A DNA stretch of 50,587 nt, taken from Desulfobacca sp. 4484_104 (GTDB lineage Bacteria > Desulfobacterota > Desulfobaccia > Desulfobaccales > Desulfobaccaceae). The stretch lies in assembly GCA_002049795.1 (NCBI GenBank), contig MUKC01000031.1:1-50587 (forward strand). The letters run 5' to 3'. The notes under the pieces were generated by a model, which did no database searches, had not been told where the DNA came from, and saw nothing but the letters and a program-made list of their open reading frames with translations. Positions 2,647 to 23,258 of the stretch are shown here, one piece after another. Each line of letters starts with the position of its first letter. The stretch's first letter is position 1. The position numbers and the translations under genes were made by a program.

Positions 2647-3069
2647 TTAGCCTCCGGAGCAGGACACCTCTTTCACGTAACGCATCCGCAGATCATAAAG
2701 CAGATGATCGAATAGATTCTCCTCCTCGGTGGTGAGGTTATTTCTGGTTTTTTCCCGCAGTAAGCCTAAAAGATCAATAGTCTGCTTGGCCAGCGGCAGG
2801 TCCTTTTTCGTTTCTCCGGTAGCTGGATCAGGAAGATCTCCCAGATGCAGAAACGCGGAGGAGCTGAGCGAAATCAGGAAAGATGAAAAGGTGATCTCCG
2901 GCAAGGGACAGGTGCGGGATTCAGCTTCTGATTTACCCTCTTCCGAGGCGGCGGCCGCCGCCGCGCCCTCCGACCGGGTTTCTTCCCGCAGGCGAGCTTT
3001 TTCTTCCTCGCTCTGAAAAAAGAACCGTTTGTCTTTAACCGTGTAACCTTTATCTTCGGTTTCGGCCAT
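2647..3069 (-). CDS. DUF1844 family protein
   Basis: Small acidic protein of unknown function, about 140 residues. The N-terminal half is charged, Ala/Glu-rich and low in complexity. The C-terminal half (about residues 65-140) matches the DUF1844 pattern: FSSFLISLSSSAFLHLGD, then LPLAKQTIDLLGLLREKT, then LTTEEENLFDHLLYDLRMRYV. DUF1844 is widespread in Deltaproteobacteria and usually sits beside core genes. The start at 3069 (MAETEDKGY) follows a clear GGAGG site; an upstream in-frame start at 3099 has none. It lies only 2 bases upstream of ispE and probably shares its transcript. No function can be assigned from sequence. Confidence 0.85.
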   Translation of the reverse strand: MAETEDKGYTVKDKRFFFQSEEEKARLREETRSEGAAAAAASEEGKSEAESRTCPLPEITFSSFLISLSSSAFLHLGDLPDPATGETKKDLPLAKQTIDLLGLLREKTRNNLTTEEENLFDHLLYDLRMRYVKEVSCSGG

Positions 3070-3131
3070 GCCTGATATCCTCCCTAAATAAAATGCCATA
3101 GCCCATAAGCCGGGTGATTAACTTTGGCTTT

Positions 3132-4712
3132 TCATAGTTCGAGCTGCATGGCTTTGGCGACATGGGGCAAACGGCGCACATCTTCCAAACACTCTGGAGT
3201 TATCGGGGTATCGGTGGTAAGTAGGATAACGTTTTGCCCCCGTTCCTTTTCCTGACCCACCTGCATGCGGGCAATATTGATATTGTGCTTGCCGATGGTG
3301 GTGCCGATGGAGCCGATCACTCCGGGCCGGTCGGTATTATAGATGAACAGCAGGTGGCCTTCCGGCAAGGCTTCCAGGCGGAATTCATTGATCCGCACCA
3401 GTCGAGGTTCGTATTTGCCGAATATGGTTCCGGCCACCGAGTATTGCTGGGTTCCGGAGCGGACCGACAGCCGGATCAAGGTAGTAAAGTCTTCGGCGGA
3501 TTCGATTTTGGCCTCGGTCAGGTGAATGCCCCGACTCTTGGCGATGCTGGGGGCATTGATATAATTAACCTCGTCATGCATCACCGGATATAACAGACCC
3601 TTGAGCAAGGAATGGGTCAAGGGCTTGGTCTCCAGTTTGGAGACCTCGCCGATGTAATCGATGGCCACGCTATCAATGGGGCCTTCAATGATCTGGGCCT
3701 GGAAACTGCCCAGGGCTTCGGCCAGGGTCAGATAGGGCCGCGCCTGAGCCAGCATTTCGCCGCTCACCGCCGGGGCATTGACCGCATTTTTTATAGTTCC
3801 GGTGAGGAGATAATCCGCGACTTGTTCGGCGATCGCCACGGCCACATTTTTCTGGGCTTCTTCGGTCGAGGCTCCTAAATGGGGGGTACAGATGACATTA
3901 CCCATGATCAAGAGGGGGGAACCGACCGGAGGTTCTTGTTCAAAGACATCGATGGCCGCTCCGGCCACGATCCCCTCCTGCAAGGCATCCACCAGCGCGG
4001 CCTCATCAATCAGACCGCCCCGGGCGCAGTTGACCACCATGACCCCCGGTTTCATTTTGCGGAAGGCCTTGCGGTTAAGGATATGGGCGGTGTCCTTGGT
4101 CTTGGGGGTATGCAAAGTAATGAAATCGGAACGGGCCAAGAGATCGTCCAGCGATACCATCTCCACCCCGCAGGAAGTCACCATCTCCCGTTTGACGTAG
4201 GGGTCGTAACCCAGGATGCGCATCTTTAGGCCTTGGGCCCGGCTGGCCACTATGGTGCCGATCCGTCCCAAGCCGATGATCCCCAGCGTCTTATTATAAA
4301 GTTCCCGGCCCTGGAAACGCTTTTTCTCCCAGCGGCCTTCACGCATGGAATGCGCGGCCTGGGGAATATTCCGGGCCAAAGCCAGCAGCAAGGAAATGGC
4401 ATGTTCCGCGGTGGTAATACTATTGCCCCCCGGGGTATTCATGACCACGATACCCCGTTTGGTGGCCGCGCCAATATCGACGTTGTCCAGGCCGGTACCG
4501 GCCCGGCCCACTACCTTAAGACGATTGGAGGCCTCGATCACTTTGTCGGTAACCTTAGTAGCACTGCGGATGATCAGGCCCTCCACATCCTGAATGGCCT
4601 CCATTAATTCAGCCGGATCCATGCCTACCTGGACTACTACCTCGATATTGGGAGTGTTCTCCAAAACCGCGATCCCGGCCGGATGCAGGTCATCACTTAT
4701 CAGCACCTTCAT
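3132..4712 (-). CDS. serA: D-3-phosphoglycerate dehydrogenase
   Basis: First enzyme of the phosphorylated serine pathway; it oxidises 3-phosphoglycerate to 3-phosphohydroxypyruvate with NAD+. At 526 residues it is the long form. It has a substrate-binding domain, a Rossmann NAD domain with GLGRIG at 147-152, the catalytic triad Arg231 (CARGG), Glu260 (FEQEP) and His278 (TPHLGAST), an intervening allosteric-substrate-binding region, and a C-terminal ACT domain (about 455-526, containing YNTDRPGVIGSIG) that usually mediates serine feedback inhibition. It starts 4 bases after the class V aminotransferase and is co-transcribed with it. The two together could supply phosphoserine if the aminotransferase takes the SerC role. 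Confidence 0.97.
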   Translation of the reverse strand: MKVLISDDLHPAGIAVLENTPNIEVVVQVGMDPAELMEAIQDVEGLIIRSATKVTDKVIEASNRLKVVGRAGTGLDNVDIGAATKRGIVVMNTPGGNSITTAEHAISLLLALARNIPQAAHSMREGRWEKKRFQGRELYNKTLGIIGLGRIGTIVASRAQGLKMRILGYDPYVKREMVTSCGVEMVSLDDLLARSDFITLHTPKTKDTAHILNRKAFRKMKPGVMVVNCARGGLIDEAALVDALQEGIVAGAAIDVFEQEPPVGSPLLIMGNVICTPHLGASTEEAQKNVAVAIAEQVADYLLTGTIKNAVNAPAVSGEMLAQARPYLTLAEALGSFQAQIIEGPIDSVAIDYIGEVSKLETKPLTHSLLKGLLYPVMHDEVNYINAPSIAKSRGIHLTEAKIESAEDFTTLIRLSVRSGTQQYSVAGTIFGKYEPRLVRINEFRLEALPEGHLLFIYNTDRPGVIGSIGTTIGKHNINIARMQVGQEKERGQNVILLTTDTPITPECLEDVRRLPHVAKAMQLEL

Positions 4713-17446: not shown

Positions 17447-17476
17447 TTGACAGGGGTAAAAAAAATTGGTTATTTT
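17447..17476 (+). promoter_or_regulatory. putative promoter of the aromatic amino acid operon
   Basis: TTGACA (17447-17452) with an 18-base spacer to TATTTT (17471-17476). The predicted start point falls at about 17483, the A of the leader-peptide ATG, so translation could be leaderless. A perfect anti-16S match GGAGGTGAT at 17404-17412 lies further upstream, so an earlier promoter is not excluded. Apart from these sites, 17153-17446 holds only the slyD-like/fadD promoter. Confidence 0.5.
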
Positions 17477-17482
17477 GATATT

Positions 17483-17599
17483 ATGATCGGAAAGTCGAGG
17501 GCAAAGGCACACAGGTCTGCTTATTGGGGCGGGGAGAACTTTAGCTGTTATTATTACTTTCGACCCCTGACCTGCGTCTCGACTTTTAAAAGTAAATAG
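17483..17599 (+). CDS. aromatic leader peptide of a transcription attenuator
   Basis: A 38-codon frame whose middle reads YWGGENFSCYYYF, with further Phe and Cys codons near the end. Nine of the 38 codons encode Trp, Tyr or Phe: one Trp, four Tyr, four Phe. It stops at 17597-17599, just before a terminator hairpin, and lies directly upstream of chorismate and phenylalanine biosynthesis genes. That is the layout of a ribosome-sensed attenuator leader. The ATG lacks a ribosome site. The frame is open further upstream and a GTG at 17408 could extend it, adding more aromatic residues; the sensing codons are unaffected by that choice. The peptide itself probably has no function beyond being translated. 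Confidence 0.75.
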   Translation: MIGKSRAKAHRSAYWGGENFSCYYYFRPLTCVSTFKSK

Positions 17600-17636
17600 C
17601 TAATAAAAATAAAGACTTTTAAAAGCCGTGGCGCAG
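17490..17636 (+). promoter_or_regulatory. attenuator: mutually exclusive 1:2 and antiterminator (2:3) helices
   Basis: Segment 17490-17500 can pair with 17577-17587 (11 pairs including two G-U): helix 1:2. Segment 17572-17593 can instead pair with 17615-17636 in a single register with 20 of 22 positions paired (one G-U, mismatches at 17579/17629 and 17582/17626): helix 2:3. Helix 2:3 sequesters the whole 5' arm of the terminator (17621-17631). A ribosome stalled on the Tyr/Phe codons at 17549-17560 would block 1:2 and leave segment 2 free, favouring read-through. A ribosome reaching the stop at 17597-17599 would cover segment 2 and allow termination. Confidence 0.75.
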
Positions 17637-17658
17637 CACAGGCGACCACGGCTTTTTT
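17621..17658 (+). terminator. attenuator terminator hairpin (helix 3:4)
   Basis: A perfect 11-base stem, AAAAGCCGTGG (17621-17631) with CCACGGCTTTT (17646-17656), closes a 14-base loop and ends in six T (17653-17658). It is a textbook intrinsic terminator placed 58 bases before the first biosynthetic gene rather than after a gene. Confidence 0.88.
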
Positions 17659-17715
17659 ATTGTTCGCGGCCGAGGTCGAAATGGAAAGCCGCTCCCGGCC
17701 CGAGGAGGAGAGCAG

Positions 17716-18513
17716 ATGATTGGTAAACAGATTCGCATGGAACGCATTATTAATCGGGAAACTGGTCGCACCGTGTTGGTTCCCATGGATCATGGGGTTA
17801 CCGTGGGACCGATCGAAGGGCTAATCGATATGAAAACTACCGTCGATCACGTAGCCCTGGGCGGCGCTAATGCCATTGTCATCCATAAGGGCCTGGTGGG
17901 GAGCGGCCATCGCCGCCGGGGCCGGGATGTCGGCCTGATCATCCATTTATCGGCCTCTACCAGTCTGTCACCCTTTCCCAACGCCAAGACCCTGGTCTGC
18001 AGTGTGGAAGAAGCCATCAAATTGGGGGCCGATGCGGTTTCCATTCACGTCAATATCGGCAACGGCATGGAACGGGAAATGCTTACCGATCTGGGCCAGG
18101 TGTCGCAGGAGGCGCACGAATGGGGCATGCCGCTCTTGGCCATGATCTACCCGCGCGGCGAACGTATTAAGGATGAATATGATCCCAAGGTCATCAAGCA
18201 CGCGGCGCGGTTAGGTGCGGAATTAGGGGCGGATATTGTTAAGGTGTCTTATACCGGTTCGGTGGAAAGCTTCCGCGCGGTGATCGCCGGCTGTCCGGTG
18301 CCGGTGGTGATTGCCGGCGGTCCGAAGATGAACTCGGATCGAGATATCCTGGAAATGGTCAAAGGCTCGGTCGAAGCCGGAGGCTCCGGGGTATCCATTG
18401 GCCGCAATGTGTTTCAACACCGAGAGCCGTCGCGCATGGTCGGCGCCATCAGTCTGCTGGTGCATGAGAATAGCACGGTGGATGAAGCCCTTTCCTTTCT
18501 ACAAACTGGATGA
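17716..18513 (+). CDS. 2-amino-3,7-dideoxy-D-threo-hept-6-ulosonate (ADH) synthase
   Basis: Class I aldolase-like enzyme (AroA' of the archaeal-type shikimate entry). It joins a deoxy-ketofructose-phosphate-derived unit with aspartate semialdehyde to form ADTH, bypassing DAHP synthase. The 265 residues include the active-site Asp25 in [11 protein letters not shown], the Tyr145 in AMIYPRG and the Schiff-base Lys176 in [10 protein letters not shown], plus VVIAGGPKM and the phosphate-binding SIGRNVFQH. The DhnA-type fructose-bisphosphate aldolases are close relatives, but the next gene being DHQ synthase II fixes the role. The start follows a GAGGAGGAG ribosome site, downstream of the attenuator. 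Confidence 0.93.
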
Positions 18514-18526
18514 TTAGGGAGTGAAG

Positions 18527-19519
18527 ATGAAACAGGCATGGGTAAAGGTTGATCCCTGGGATAAAAAACGGGTAACCACTGCTTTGGAAGGGGGCGCGGA
18601 CGCCGTCTTGGTACCGAACGGTTATGCCGATGAAGTCCGAGGACTGGGCCGTATCCAGGTAATTGCTCCCGATGGCGACCTGATTCCGGGGCAGGACGTC
18701 CAGACCATAACGCTGACCAGCATGGAAGATGAGGCCGAAGTCATTCGACTGGCGCAGAGCGGGCCGGTGATTGTGCAGTGTTCGGATTGGACCATCATTC
18801 CTTTAGAAAACCTGGTAGCTCGCTGCAATAATCTGTTCGTCGAAACCAACAGTGCTGAAGACGCCCGCACGTTCTTAGGGATCTTGGAGCGCGGCGTCGA
18901 TGGCCTGGTGATTACCACCGCTGACTTATCAGAATTGAAGAAGATTTTGCGGGTCGTCAAAGAGGTGTCGCCGCCGGTGGAGTTAAGCGTGGCCCAGATC
19001 ACCCAGATCAAGCCGCTGGGCATGGGCGATCGGGTCTGTGTGGATACCTGTACCAATATGGGAGCAGGGGAGGGCATGCTGATCGGCAATTCGTCGGCGG
19101 CCCTGTTCCTGGTCCACGCTGAATCCCTGGAAAATCCCTATGTGGCGCCTCGGCCTTTCCGGGTTAATGCCGGTCCGGTTCACGCCTATATCCGGGTTCC
19201 GGAGGGCAAAACCCGCTACTTGGGGGAATTAGCCGCCGGGGATGAGGTGCTGATCGTCAACCATACCGGCCGTACCCTGCCCGCCGTGGTGGGCCGCATA
19301 AAATTGGAGAAACGGCCGCTGATGCTGATTGCCGCCAGTTGCGGCGGACAAGAATTCAGTACGGTGGTCCAAAATGCCGAGACCATTCGGCTCACTCAAC
19401 CGGGGGGCGAGGCCGTTTCGGTGGTGCATCTCAAGCCTGGCGATGAGGTGTTGGTTGCCCTGGAGGAAGCCGGTCGCCATTTTGGCTATAAAGTTAGTGA
19501 GACCATCATTGAGAAATAG
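18527..19519 (+). CDS. 3-dehydroquinate synthase II
   Basis: NAD+-dependent enzyme (AroB') that oxidatively deaminates and cyclises ADTH to 3-dehydroquinate, replacing classical AroB. The 330-residue protein shows AWVKVDPWDKKRVTTALEGGADAV at the start, MEDEAEVIRLA, the KPLGMGDRVCVDTCTNMGAGEG-type block, LVHAESLENPYVAPRPFRVNAGPVHAY, and the C-terminal SVVHLKPGDEVL, all characteristic of this family. The bacterial form is known from sulfate reducers such as Desulfovibrio. The start is ATG at 18527, preceded by AGGGAG; a GTG 6 bases earlier is possible. It sits 13 bases after ADH synthase, so the two-step bypass is co-expressed. Confidence 0.94.
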   Translation: MKQAWVKVDPWDKKRVTTALEGGADAVLVPNGYADEVRGLGRIQVIAPDGDLIPGQDVQTITLTSMEDEAEVIRLAQSGPVIVQCSDWTIIPLENLVARCNNLFVETNSAEDARTFLGILERGVDGLVITTADLSELKKILRVVKEVSPPVELSVAQITQIKPLGMGDRVCVDTCTNMGAGEGMLIGNSSAALFLVHAESLENPYVAPRPFRVNAGPVHAYIRVPEGKTRYLGELAAGDEVLIVNHTGRTLPAVVGRIKLEKRPLMLIAASCGGQEFSTVVQNAETIRLTQPGGEAVSVVHLKPGDEVLVALEEAGRHFGYKVSETIIEK

Positions 19520-19525
19520 ACAACC

Positions 19526-20611
19526 ATGACCGACAAGCAAAGCTTAAGGGAAAAAATCGACCGCCTTGATCAGCAGTTGGTCGAACTGCTCAATCAACGC
19601 CAGGCCTTGGCCCGATCCATTGGAGAGATCAAAAACAAGCAGTGTCTGGACACCTTGGATCCGGAGCGGGAACAACAGGTTATGGCCCACCTGCAGCAAT
19701 GTAACTCCGGGCCGCTCAGTCAGGAGGCACTAAATAATATCTTCCGGGAGATCATCTCCGCGGCCCGGCAGATTCAGATGCCTCTTCGGGTAGCCTTTTT
19801 AGGGCCCGAAGCGACTTTCACCCACCTGGCGGCGATCAAGAAATTTGGCCGCAGCAGCCAATTTGGCCCCTTGCCGACTATCCAGGAGGTATTTTTCGAG
19901 GTCGAAAAAGGCAAATATCATTTAGGGGTGGTGCCCATTGAAAATTCTACCGAAGGGGTGGTCAACGATACTCTGGATCTATTCGTCGGGACGCCGCTCA
20001 AGATCTGCGGCGAAATCTATCTGGAGATCTCTCATGACCTGATCTCCAGGACCGGTCAGCGCCAGGACATCGAGATCATTTATACGCATCCCCAGGCCTA
20101 CGCGCAATGCCGGAAGTGGCTCAAGACCCATCTCCCCGAAATTCCGGTGATGGATGTGCGCTCTACCGGTCTGGCCGCCCAGAAGGCCGCTCAAAACCCC
20201 AATTCCGCGGCCATTGCCAGCTCTTTTGCGGCCTCGCTCTACGATCTTAGGGTAGTAGAACCCCGCATCGAGGATTATCGGGAAAACGCCACCCATTTCT
20301 TTATTATCGGCCCCCAAAGTCAGGCTTTGACCGGTGCGGATAAAACTTCCATAATTTTCGGCGTGGATGACGTGCCCGGGTCCTTATATAACATGCTCCG
20401 GCCACTGGCTGAGCACCGGATTAACATGACCCGGATTGTTTCCCGGCCGATAAAGACGGTGGCCTGGCGCTATCTCTTTTTCGTCGATCTGGATGGCCAT
20501 CAGGAAGAGGAGCCGGTTAAGGGTTGCCTGGCCGAAATGCAGCACCTGAGTGTATTTTTTAAGATCATGGGTTCGTTCCCGCGCTCCGAAGCTATTGAGA
20601 AGATCAGTTGA
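19526..20611 (+). CDS. pheA: bifunctional chorismate mutase / prephenate dehydratase
   Basis: Converts chorismate to prephenate and on to phenylpyruvate, the committed Phe branch. In 361 residues the N-terminal 1-85 is an AroQ-type chorismate mutase (REKIDRLDQQLVELLNQR, then IGEIK). The dehydratase domain (about 90-275) has FLGPEATFTHLAA, GVVPIENSTEGVVNDTLD and RENATHFFIIG, with the catalytic Thr before HFF. The C-terminal ACT domain (about 280-360) has DVPGSLYNML and a TRIVSRP motif corresponding to the ESRP Phe-binding site, so allosteric Phe inhibition is expected in addition to the attenuator upstream. Its stop overlaps the TTG start of aroD by 4 bases. Confidence 0.96.
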   Translation: MTDKQSLREKIDRLDQQLVELLNQRQALARSIGEIKNKQCLDTLDPEREQQVMAHLQQCNSGPLSQEALNNIFREIISAARQIQMPLRVAFLGPEATFTHLAAIKKFGRSSQFGPLPTIQEVFFEVEKGKYHLGVVPIENSTEGVVNDTLDLFVGTPLKICGEIYLEISHDLISRTGQRQDIEIIYTHPQAYAQCRKWLKTHLPEIPVMDVRSTGLAAQKAAQNPNSAAIASSFAASLYDLRVVEPRIEDYRENATHFFIIGPQSQALTGADKTSIIFGVDDVPGSLYNMLRPLAEHRINMTRIVSRPIKTVAWRYLFFVDLDGHQEEEPVKGCLAEMQHLSVFFKIMGSFPRSEAIEKIS

Positions 20612-21076
20612 ATAAACTGAGAGTCTGCGTTCCAGTCGTAGAGCGGACTAACGAGGGGGCTCGGCAAACCTTGGAGCAGATTGCCGCCCGCAGCTATCTG
20701 GCCGAACTGCGGGTTGATTATTTGGCTCAACCCGATCTGCCTCTCCTGGCATGATTTTCAGGGGACGCCGGAAACAGCCCGGTTACAGGACATCCTGGAG
20801 GAGCAGATGCAATTGGGTGCTGACGTGGTCAAACTGGTCACCCTGGCCCGGACGCCCCAGGATAACCTGCGGGTGCTAGCGCTGATTCTGCAAGCCAACG
20901 CCGGGGGCCAGGAAATTATTGCCTTCTGTATGGGGCCGGATGGCAAGTTTTCCCGCGTCATCGCTCCCTTGCTGGGCAGCTATCTGACTTTTGCCACCCT
21001 GGCGGCGGGCCGGGAATCGGCGCCGGGACAGTTGACCGCGGCGCAAGTTGAAGCAATCTGGGAGATTCTGGCATGA
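20608..21076 (+). pseudogene. aroD: type I 3-dehydroquinate dehydratase, internally deleted and frameshifted
   Basis: AroD dehydrates 3-dehydroquinate to 3-dehydroshikimate through a Lys Schiff base. The frame from TTG 20608 gives a family N-terminus (KLRVCVPVVERTNEG ... AELRVDYLAQPDL) but ends at TGA 20752-20754. The C-terminal half, in another frame from about 20737, starts at the catalytic SWHDFQGTP and continues with the Schiff-base lysine in ADVVKLVTLA, CMGPDGKFSRV and ESAPGQLT to 21076. By comparison with E. coli AroD, about 75 residues between these blocks, including the active-site EGG region, are gone, and the missing length is not a multiple of three. Product should be inactive. No other dehydroquinase lies in this window, so either another copy exists or the junction is an artefact. 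Confidence 0.9.
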
Positions 21077-21894
21077 TTAACGGCAGCACCCGCATATTTG
21101 GTATCCTGGGCCAACCAGTCAGTCATTCCTTAAGCCCGGCCATGCACAATGCCGCGTTCCAGGCCCAGGGAGTCAACGCCGTCTATGTGGCCTTTCCGGT
21201 GCAGAATCTGGAGCAGGCGGTTTTGGGGCTGCGGGGGCTTAACATTGGCGGGGTCAGCGTCACCATACCGTTCAAAGAGGCAATCATCCCGCTTTTAGAT
21301 GAGATTGAGGCCCAGGCCGCGGCCATGGGCGCGGTGAACACCGTAGTCAACCACGAAGGGCGGCTTAAAGGCAGCAATACCGATTATTTAGGGGCAATTG
21401 CGGCCCTTAGGGATCATACCCAGATTAACGGCCAGCACTTCTTGGTGCTGGGCGCTGGAGGTGCGGCCCGGGCCATCGCCTTTGGCATTCAGGAGGCGGG
21501 CGGACGGGTTTCGGTCAGTGATATTGACTGGGACCGGGCGCAAGCCCTGGCCCAGGAGTTCAAGCTGGAGGCTATCCCCTTAACTGCCCTGGCTCAATGC
21601 CCGGCAACGAATTTAATTAACGCCACGCCGATCGGCATGACCCCTAAAGTCGAGGAAATCCCCATTGATGCGAATCTGTTGGGACGGATGGCGCTGGTCA
21701 TGGACATCGTTTATCAGCCACTCCAGACCAGACTGTTACGGGAGAGCGCGGCTCGCGGCGGGAAGACCATTGATGGCCTACAGATGTTGGTTTATCAGGG
21801 TGCGGCCCAGTTTGAGTTGTTTACCGGCCAACCCGCGCCGGTAGAGGTGATGCGCCAGGCCGCCCTGGCAGGGCTAGCGCTAACATCTAAATAA
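21073..21894 (+). CDS. aroE: shikimate dehydrogenase (NADP+)
   Basis: Reduces 3-dehydroshikimate to shikimate with NADPH. The 273 residues are of normal length. The substrate site GQPVSHSLSPAMHNAAF (about 13-29), the catalytic Lys68 in VTIPFKEA, GAVNTVV, the Asp in GSNTDYLG, the nucleotide loop VLGAGGAARAI (about 125-135), NATPIGM and the C-terminal GLQMLVYQGAAQFELFTG are all visible. The ATG overlaps the aroD stop by 4 bases, so its translation would be coupled to an intact upstream aroD; the broken aroD would weaken this unless ribosomes reinitiate. Confidence 0.96.
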   Translation: MINGSTRIFGILGQPVSHSLSPAMHNAAFQAQGVNAVYVAFPVQNLEQAVLGLRGLNIGGVSVTIPFKEAIIPLLDEIEAQAAAMGAVNTVVNHEGRLKGSNTDYLGAIAALRDHTQINGQHFLVLGAGGAARAIAFGIQEAGGRVSVSDIDWDRAQALAQEFKLEAIPLTALAQCPATNLINATPIGMTPKVEEIPIDANLLGRMALVMDIVYQPLQTRLLRESAARGGKTIDGLQMLVYQGAAQFELFTGQPAPVEVMRQAALAGLALTSK

Positions 21895-21896
21895 TC

Positions 21897-21958
21897 CTCT
21901 GTGTCTTTCCTGTCTTGGTGGTGAAAAATATTAACCACAGAGGCACCAAGACACAGAG
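21897..21958. repeat. palindromic CACAGAG-type intergenic repeat
   Basis: Between aroE and aroA, 11-base inverted arms CTCTGTGTCTT (21897-21907) and AAGACACAGAG (21948-21958) enclose further partly complementary sequence, and another CACAGAG follows at about 21964-21970. Similar CACAGAG-rich intergenic elements occur in many environmental bacterial genomes (from memory). It separates aroE from aroA by 95 bases in an otherwise overlapping operon. Confidence 0.55.
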
Positions 21959-21989
21959 AAAAGCACAGAGTAAAGAATACAACCATTCC

Positions 21990-23258
21990 ATGACAATTGA
22001 GATCATACCGGTGGAGCGGGTCGAGGCGACCATAACCCTGCCCGGCTCCAAAAGCTTTACCCACCGGGCGCTAATCGCCGCCAGTCTGGCGGATGGGGCT
22101 AGCGTCTTGATAAATCCCTTGCGGGCCGAAGATACTTTACTGACCGCCTCGGCCCTGAGCCAGTTGGGGTCGTCGATTAACTGGCCGGGCGCGTCATGTG
22201 AGGTACAGGGCACCGGCGCTAAGCTACAGGTGCCCGAAAAGCCGATCTATTTGGGTGATTCCGGCACCTCTATGCGTCTGCTGACCGCGGTAGTGGCCCT
22301 GGGGCACGGTCGCTATCGCCTGCTGGGCTCCGAGCGCCTGAGCCAGCGTCCTATTCAAGATCTACTCGATGCCCTGACCCCCTTAGGGGTGGAAGCCGTT
22401 TCCGAAGCCGACACCGGTTGCCCACCGGTTACGGTTAACGCCCGCGGCCTGGCCGGTGGCCCCACCCGGGTAGCAGGCCGGATCAGCAGCCAGTTTCTCT
22501 CCGCCCTGCTGCTGATCGCCCCCTTGGCCCATAAGGACGTGGAGATCACGGTGATCGGCGAACTGGTATCCCGGCCCTACGTAGATATTACCCTTGAAGT
22601 GATGTCGGCCTTCGGCATTGCCTATTCCCGCCAGGATTACCTGTTTTTTCGTGTGCCCGCCGGTCAGCGCTACCAGGCCCGGACCTATGAGATCGAAGGC
22701 GATGCCTCCAGTGCTTCCTATTTTCTGGGCGCCGCGGCGATCACCGCCGGACGGGTCCAGTTAACCAATCTTAACACTAATTCCTGCCAGGGAGACAGCC
22801 GTTTTGTTCATATCTTAGAACAAATGGGTTGTAAAGTTGAACATTCGGCCAAGGGCATGGTTTTACAGGGAAAACCTCTTAAAGGCCTTACCGTCGACAT
22901 GAGCGACATGCCAGATTTGGTACCGACCCTGGCAGTAGTGGCCGCTTTTGCCCAGGGAAAGACGGTGATCACCGGCGTAGCTCATCTTAGGCATAAGGAA
23001 TCCAATCGCCTGGAGGCGGTGACCAGCGAATTGCACAAGCTCGGCATTGCCGCCCAGGAAACCCCAGAGGGCTTGACGATTCCAGGCGGCCACCCTCATG
23101 GTACCACTATCGAGACCTATAATGATCACCGTATTGCCATGAGCTTTGCCCTGGCGGGCCTCAAAATCCCCGGCCTGGTGATAACCAACGAACAATGCGT
23201 GGCCAAATCATTCCCGGAGTTTTGGGAGTACTTTGACATCTTGACTGGCCGCCGCTGA
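21990..23258 (+). CDS. aroA: 3-phosphoshikimate 1-carboxyvinyltransferase (EPSP synthase)
   Basis: Transfers enolpyruvyl from PEP to shikimate 3-phosphate. From the start at 21990 (MTIEIIPVERVEATITLPGSK) it has 422 residues. The motifs LPGSKSFTHRALIAASLADG, GDSGTSMRLLTA, SERLSQRPIQDL, RISSQFLSALL, EIEGDASSASYFL, DMSDMPDLVPTLAV, LRHKESNRLEA and YNDHRIAMSFALAG cover both globular domains. An upstream extension to 21915 in the same frame is encoded by the CACAGAG repeat and is not credible. It is the last gene of the aromatic operon; chorismate synthase and shikimate kinase are not in the window. Confidence 0.96.
   Translation: MTIEIIPVERVEATITLPGSKSFTHRALIAASLADGASVLINPLRAEDTLLTASALSQLGSSINWPGASCEVQGTGAKLQVPEKPIYLGDSGTSMRLLTAVVALGHGRYRLLGSERLSQRPIQDLLDALTPLGVEAVSEADTGCPPVTVNARGLAGGPTRVAGRISSQFLSALLLIAPLAHKDVEITVIGELVSRPYVDITLEVMSAFGIAYSRQDYLFFRVPAGQRYQARTYEIEGDASSASYFLGAAAITAGRVQLTNLNTNSCQGDSRFVHILEQMGCKVEHSAKGMVLQGKPLKGLTVDMSDMPDLVPTLAVVAAFAQGKTVITGVAHLRHKESNRLEAVTSELHKLGIAAQETPEGLTIPGGHPHGTTIETYNDHRIAMSFALAGLKIPGLVITNEQCVAKSFPEFWEYFDILTGRR

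Follow-up and report, generated by a model that had tools for sequence, protein, structure and literature searches.

How is an archaeal-type aromatic operon controlled in a member of the Desulfobacterota, and what is the role of the short reading frame and the hairpins that precede its first gene? This question is raised by a locus in the window, that is, the whole analyzed stretch of 50,587 nt from Desulfobacca sp. 4484_104 (contig MUKC01000031.1), in which all features described here lie on the forward strand. The operon starts with the gene of 2-amino-3,7-dideoxy-D-threo-hept-6-ulosonate (ADTH) synthase (17716-18513; TIGR01949, 386.7 bits, cut-off 299.5), followed by 3-dehydroquinate (DHQ) synthase II (18521-19519; NF002627, 494.8 bits, cut-off 392; Pfam DHQS), and these two genes, whose family models exceed the curated cut-offs, define the operon as archaeal-type. 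Further downstream are genes for a chorismate mutase/prephenate dehydratase (CM-PDT; 19526-20611; NF008865 and TIGR01807 above cut-off), the type I DHQ dehydratase AroD (20612-21076), shikimate dehydrogenase (aroE, 21073-21894; TIGR00507 above cut-off) and EPSP synthase (aroA, 21915-23258; TIGR01356 above cut-off). A preliminary description of this DNA had placed the shared pathway, rather than a single terminal branch, under control. The presence of ADTH synthase and DHQ synthase II agrees with this view, but the operon also encodes CM-PDT, a branch enzyme, and is consequently not restricted to the shared pathway. The aroD gene is broken in the window: its match is limited to model positions 122-228, about 200 internal bases are missing, and the frame is shifted, with the N-terminal piece in another frame. 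Two relatives of the same genus carry an intact aroD, and the defect is either genuine or possibly an artifact of the assembly.

We propose that the region upstream of the ADTH synthase gene controls the operon as a transcription attenuator of the ribosome-mediated, leader-peptide type, responding to a shortage of charged aromatic tRNAs, chiefly those for Tyr and Phe and probably also for Trp, and we assign this reading a probability of roughly 0.93. Several features of the region correspond to such a device. A short, aromatic-rich open reading frame (ORF), predicted to be translated, is followed by an intrinsic terminator ahead of the first gene, and a potential antiterminator shares the 5' arm of this terminator. 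In addition, the aromatic codon run is situated upstream of the 5' strand of the antiterminator (segment 2) and the stop codon is placed such that a terminating ribosome would mask this segment.

In the window, a candidate sigma-70-type promoter (17447-17476) is predicted by consensus match only, with a -35 element TTGACA (17447-17452), an 18-nt spacer and a -10 element TATTTT (17471-17476); the TTGACA motif is at least 90% conserved in an alignment of 27 sequences. The leader ORF (17483-17599) reads MIGKSRAKAHRSAYWGGENFSCYYYFRPLTCVSTFKSK*, with …AYWGGENFSCYYYF… inside, and contains Tyr14-Trp15 (17522-17527), a Phe codon (17540-17542) and the YYYF run (17549-17560) before it ends at a TAG stop codon (17597-17599). 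Three competing helices, as well as a perfect 11-bp terminator with a T6 run, had been recognized in the preliminary description, and both were confirmed. Segment 1, the GAAAGTCGAGG region (17490-17500), forms 11 of 11 pairs with 17577-17587 (helix 1:2), segment 2 (17572-17593) forms 20 of 22 pairs with segment 3 (17615-17636; helix 2:3, the antiterminator), and segment 3 overlaps the entire 5' arm of the terminator (3:4; 17621-17658). The arms of the latter, AAAAGCCGTGG (17621-17631) and CCACGGCTTTT (17646-17656), pair perfectly into an 11-bp stem with a loop of 14 nt and a T6 run (17653-17658). A simple terminator scan of the window reported no site at 17621-17658, because its loops were limited to 3-8 bases. 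The free leader folds more stably than its dinucleotide shuffles (z -2.9).

The start of the leader peptide is uncertain. A leader of 38 codons had been described, and the ORF and its aromatic codons were found as stated. Its start at ATG 17483, by contrast, is not preceded by a Shine-Dalgarno (SD) sequence and is not conserved, being absent from the closest relative (locus L002). In relatives, the leader starts at an ATG downstream of a GTCGAGG box, and the same codon is AGG in the window. In the stretch 17483-17515, the SD-proximal ATG of the relatives thus appears to be lost, and an upstream, in-frame ATG is located at the predicted transcription start. Since ATG 17483 coincides with the start expected from the predicted promoter, leaderless initiation at this position is possible. 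The GAGG of segment 1 doubles as the SD sequence of the leader in relatives. As their segment 1 contains the GTCGAGG box just before the leader start, the alignment suggests that helix 1:2 would in addition mask the site at which ribosomes bind to the leader.

From the anatomy of the element, its conservation and covariation and the direction in which its folding responds to the position of a ribosome, we infer the following course of stalling, termination and read-through in vivo. When charged tRNAs are plentiful, the ribosome would pass the YWGGENFSCYYYF stretch and reach the stop codon just beyond segment 2. There it would mask segment 2, so that segment 3 would be available for pairing with segment 4 and transcription would terminate before the ADTH synthase gene. 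If one of the aromatic tRNAs is uncharged, a ribosome would instead stall within the aromatic run, upstream of segment 2, so that helix 2:3 could form ahead of the transcription of segment 4 and RNA polymerase would read through. In an untranslated leader, helix 1:2 would pair and the terminator would form by default.

The decisive check against chance is conservation. Aromatic leaders in relatives had been set as a test of the original proposal, and each of the 26 ADTH loci that were retrieved from the order has a leader ORF with an aromatic run, the same competing helices and the same terminator. A detector that called for five or more W/Y/F among 10 codons in a short ORF, with an intrinsic terminator close by, was positive for 122 of 190 ADTH upstream regions (including some duplicate records), compared with one of 570 dinucleotide shuffles and one of 190 reverse strands. 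Counting primary copies per genome, the element occurs at 71 of 103 primary loci and in 19 of 30 families of the Desulfobacterota. It was found in Desulfobacterales-, Syntrophaceae-, Desulfofervidaceae- and Desulfovibrio-type records and in a metagenome-assembled genome (MAG) labeled Spirochaetes, these taxon labels being the titles of the public records as deposited, and it was not detected at the ADTH genes of Archaeoglobi, one Methanobacteriaceae genome, Aquificaceae and Planctomycetes-type MAGs. A pattern search for the TTTTAAAAGCCGTGGCGC core in 29 genomes of the order identified one copy each in 22 of them, always at the ADTH locus. In divergent families the sequences differ, and the order of aromatic run, segment 2, stop codon in or near segment 2 and terminator is kept.

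The helices themselves are conserved to different degrees. In the 27-sequence alignment of the order, 89.8% of the cells of helix 2:3 are paired, compared with 39-56% in slid controls, and two-sided changes occur in 12 cells, compared with 3.5 in shuffles (0 of 500 shuffles reach 12). The terminator, with 99.7% of cells paired over the 27 sequences, is too conserved to covary. An alignment-free test, in which the duplex of the post-run region with the terminator 5' arm plus loop was scored against 100 shuffles, placed the antiterminator in the top 5% for 90 of 102 non-redundant leaders (median z -3.0). The pairing partners change from clade to clade, with antiterminator/terminator-arm sequences such as CTGCGCC/GGCGCAG, GGTCTGCC/GGCAGACC and GCCTGTGG/CCGCAGGC, and the stop codon falls within or directly after segment 2 in most of the 102 leaders. 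The compensatory stem changes that the original proposal called for are therefore present, both as two-sided changes above shuffles in helix 2:3 and as one architecture built from different sequences in unrelated families. Helix 1:2 was likewise scored by the alignment-free duplex test, because segment 1 of genus g2 is not aligned correctly by MAFFT, and is in the top 5% of shuffles for 20 of 25 leaders of the same order and for 32 of 77 others.

Folding with ribosome masks yielded responses in the direction of the model. When the RNA ends before segment 4 and the run is occupied by a ribosome, 24 of 27 leaders have a P(2:3) above 0.5, as do all 27 if the SD sequence is occupied as well; with the ribosome at the stop codon, this is the case for only 4 of 27. 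In the complete leader with a ribosome at the stop codon, the terminator is dominant in 27 of 27. These results, together with the distances within the leaders, bear out the claims that the run precedes segment 2 and that the stop codon is positioned for blocking helix 2:3. At equilibrium, however, the terminator of the complete leader is still favored in the presence of a stalled ribosome in 22 of 27 leaders, including that of the window, and the antiterminator in 5 of 27. Consequently, the switch must either be kinetic, with helix 2:3 forming before segment 4 is available, or be aided by a segment 1 that is occupied as well. For the window, the fold before segment 4 is near balance with a stalled ribosome (P23 0.47, P12 0.43), and P23 is 0.81 for the free RNA. 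The logic of the trp and phe attenuators, to which the locus had been compared, is accordingly supported by conservation, by the changes in helix 2:3 and by folding before segment 4, but not by the equilibrium fold with a stalled ribosome.

Which amino acids would act on the leader can be approached through its codons. Within the run and its flanks, Tyr is present in 101 and Phe in 102 of 103 leaders, Trp in 75 and all three in 74, a composition that suggests a joint action of Tyr, Phe and Trp. A contrast is available within the same genome, as its trpE operon (contig C116, L191, about 2960-3160, minus strand) has a leader of its own, MRVIEGHNWCWWRPWQVREVCPPLI, which includes NWCWWRPW, contains Trp codons and no Tyr or Phe codons, and is accompanied by two terminators. 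In the order, 25 trpE loci were inspected, and a count made by eye gave 18 with a Trp-run leader. With a mixed run on the aro operon and a Trp run on the trp operon, the runs match the products of their operons.

A narrower version of the attenuator reading, compatible with the main one, is that Tyr and Phe, or just one of the two, are the only amino acids acting on the leader and that its Trp codons are incidental. Tyr and Phe do dominate the run, and Trp is absent near it in 28 of the 103 leaders. Moreover, for the AroR leader of Corynebacterium glutamicum, Phe alone is described as acting (PMC11802643), and this example of a codon that is present and need not act calls for caution with respect to three-amino-acid sensing by the aro leader. 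These points have to be weighed against the 75 leaders that do have Trp near the run, often inside it in other families. In the window, the only Trp codon precedes the YYYF run by about 22 nt, and a role of Trp in this particular organism is thus weakly supported. On the whole, we regard a restriction to Tyr and Phe, or to one of them, as a serious possibility, though somewhat less likely than not.

A terminator/antiterminator pair ahead of a biosynthetic operon would also fit an RNA that binds a metabolite or a protein, such as a riboswitch, a T-box or a TRAP-like element, with the ORF being incidental. No Rfam match was obtained at the gathering threshold, though, including Trp_leader and the other attenuator families, whose covariance models did not match the window leader above the gathering score; a permissive search returned sub-threshold scores far below the cut-off, and no T-box match was found. 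An Rfam search of 20 upstream regions without a detected leader yielded nothing meaningful except for one tRNA. The conserved parts are the open frame with its aromatic codons and the helices, no aptamer-like core being apparent between divergent families, and such an RNA is therefore very unlikely. Even less probable is a gene for a small functional or membrane peptide with a terminator of its own, which the ORF, the terminator and the hydrophobic residues might suggest, as the peptide is not conserved between families outside the aromatic run and has no Pfam or NCBIfam match, the TTTTAAAAGCCGTGGCGC core is confined to ADTH loci in single copy in the matching genomes of the order, and the stop codon and frame shift between genera (inside CTTTTAAAAG in g3, before segment 2 in g2) while the RNA helices persist.

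Leader-peptide attenuation is a classical principle, and the leaders of ilvGMEDA and thr sense several amino acids because their operons serve several products. The aro leader would resemble them in this respect, but with three aromatic amino acids in place of the branched-chain ones or Thr/Ile. With the E. coli trp and pheA attenuators (Trp_leader, RF00513; pheL) it shares a leader peptide containing codons of the product, the competition between 1:2, 2:3 and 3:4, an intrinsic terminator and a stop codon positioned such that a finishing ribosome blocks 2:3. It differs from them in that the main aromatic run is located between segments 1 and 2 instead of inside segment 1, segment 1 of the relatives includes the SD box of the leader, codons for Tyr, Phe and Trp are mixed, the operon is of the archaeal ADTH/DHQ synthase II type, and sequence homology was not detected by Rfam.

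The preliminary description also knew of no earlier account of such control. None was found for this operon type or phylum: searches of the open-access literature found no description of attenuation, or of any regulator, for an ADTH/DHQ synthase II operon or of attenuators in Desulfovibrio, and this attenuator does not figure in the main text of either Rodionov (2004) or Naville and Gautheret (2010). Attenuation of the shared pathway has precedents, however. The aroR-aroF attenuator of C. glutamicum was predicted (PMC4046766) and, as described in PMC11802643, has a Phe-Tyr-Phe leader peptide and is reported to respond to Phe but not to Tyr (Neshat et al., 2014). It likewise acts at the first committed step of the shared pathway, but on a canonical DAHP synthase in Actinobacteria, and contains Phe-Tyr-Phe only, while the run in Desulfobacterota is longer and most leaders include Trp. 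The predicted uORFC-13-1 motif of Acholeplasma similarly combines an upstream ORF with Phe codons and a terminator before the DAHP synthase gene aroF, but belongs to another phylum, another enzyme and another RNA, and has Phe codons only (PMC8632094). An attenuator has been suggested for the aroF genes of Shewanella and E. coli as well (PMC2659441). What we found undescribed is an attenuator on this operon type and its spread across the phylum, while the principle and attenuators of DAHP synthase genes were already known.

For sulfate reducers and related bacteria with archaeal-type entry reactions, the element is a candidate regulator of the synthesis of aromatic amino acids. In its broadest form, which we consider an even bet, the proposal is that one translation-based sensor, responding to all three aromatic aminoacyl-tRNAs, governs the archaeal-type aromatic pathway throughout much of the Desulfobacterota and has diverged in sequence while its logic was kept, with the ribosome-binding site of the leader sequestered by segment 2 and, in some families, two serial terminators disabled by one stall, as the 3' arm released from the first would pair with the 5' arm of the second. 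With about 100 naturally diverged versions of this attenuator on orthologous operons, it becomes possible to test directly how attenuator logic, mixed-codon sensing and terminator relays have evolved, also in species of the Desulfovibrio type that can be cultivated.

Several leaders depart from the basic arrangement. A second terminator precedes the gene in 28 of 101 leaders (e.g., L050, L054-L056, L070, L077, L113, L125 and L138), and in 27 of these 28 the 3' arm of the first terminator and the 5' arm of the second show complementarity within the top 5% of shuffles, so that a single antitermination event could disable both. Part of this complementarity would follow automatically from the similarity of the stems, yet L077 and L063 have changed both stems together to GGCCATG. 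In L049, L068 and L117-L119, a hairpin lacking a T run is found between leader and terminator. Pairing is possible between the 3' arm of this hairpin, GCCCACGGCT, and the 5' arm of the terminator, which suggests a longer relay following the same logic. Finally, two genomes of one family (L028 and L129) carry a tandem pair of complete aromatic attenuators with the leaders ...SWQGFFYYF... and ...YTYWWGFFFYFYTW..., and the pair at L028 extends from about -485 to -79 upstream of the ADTH synthase gene.
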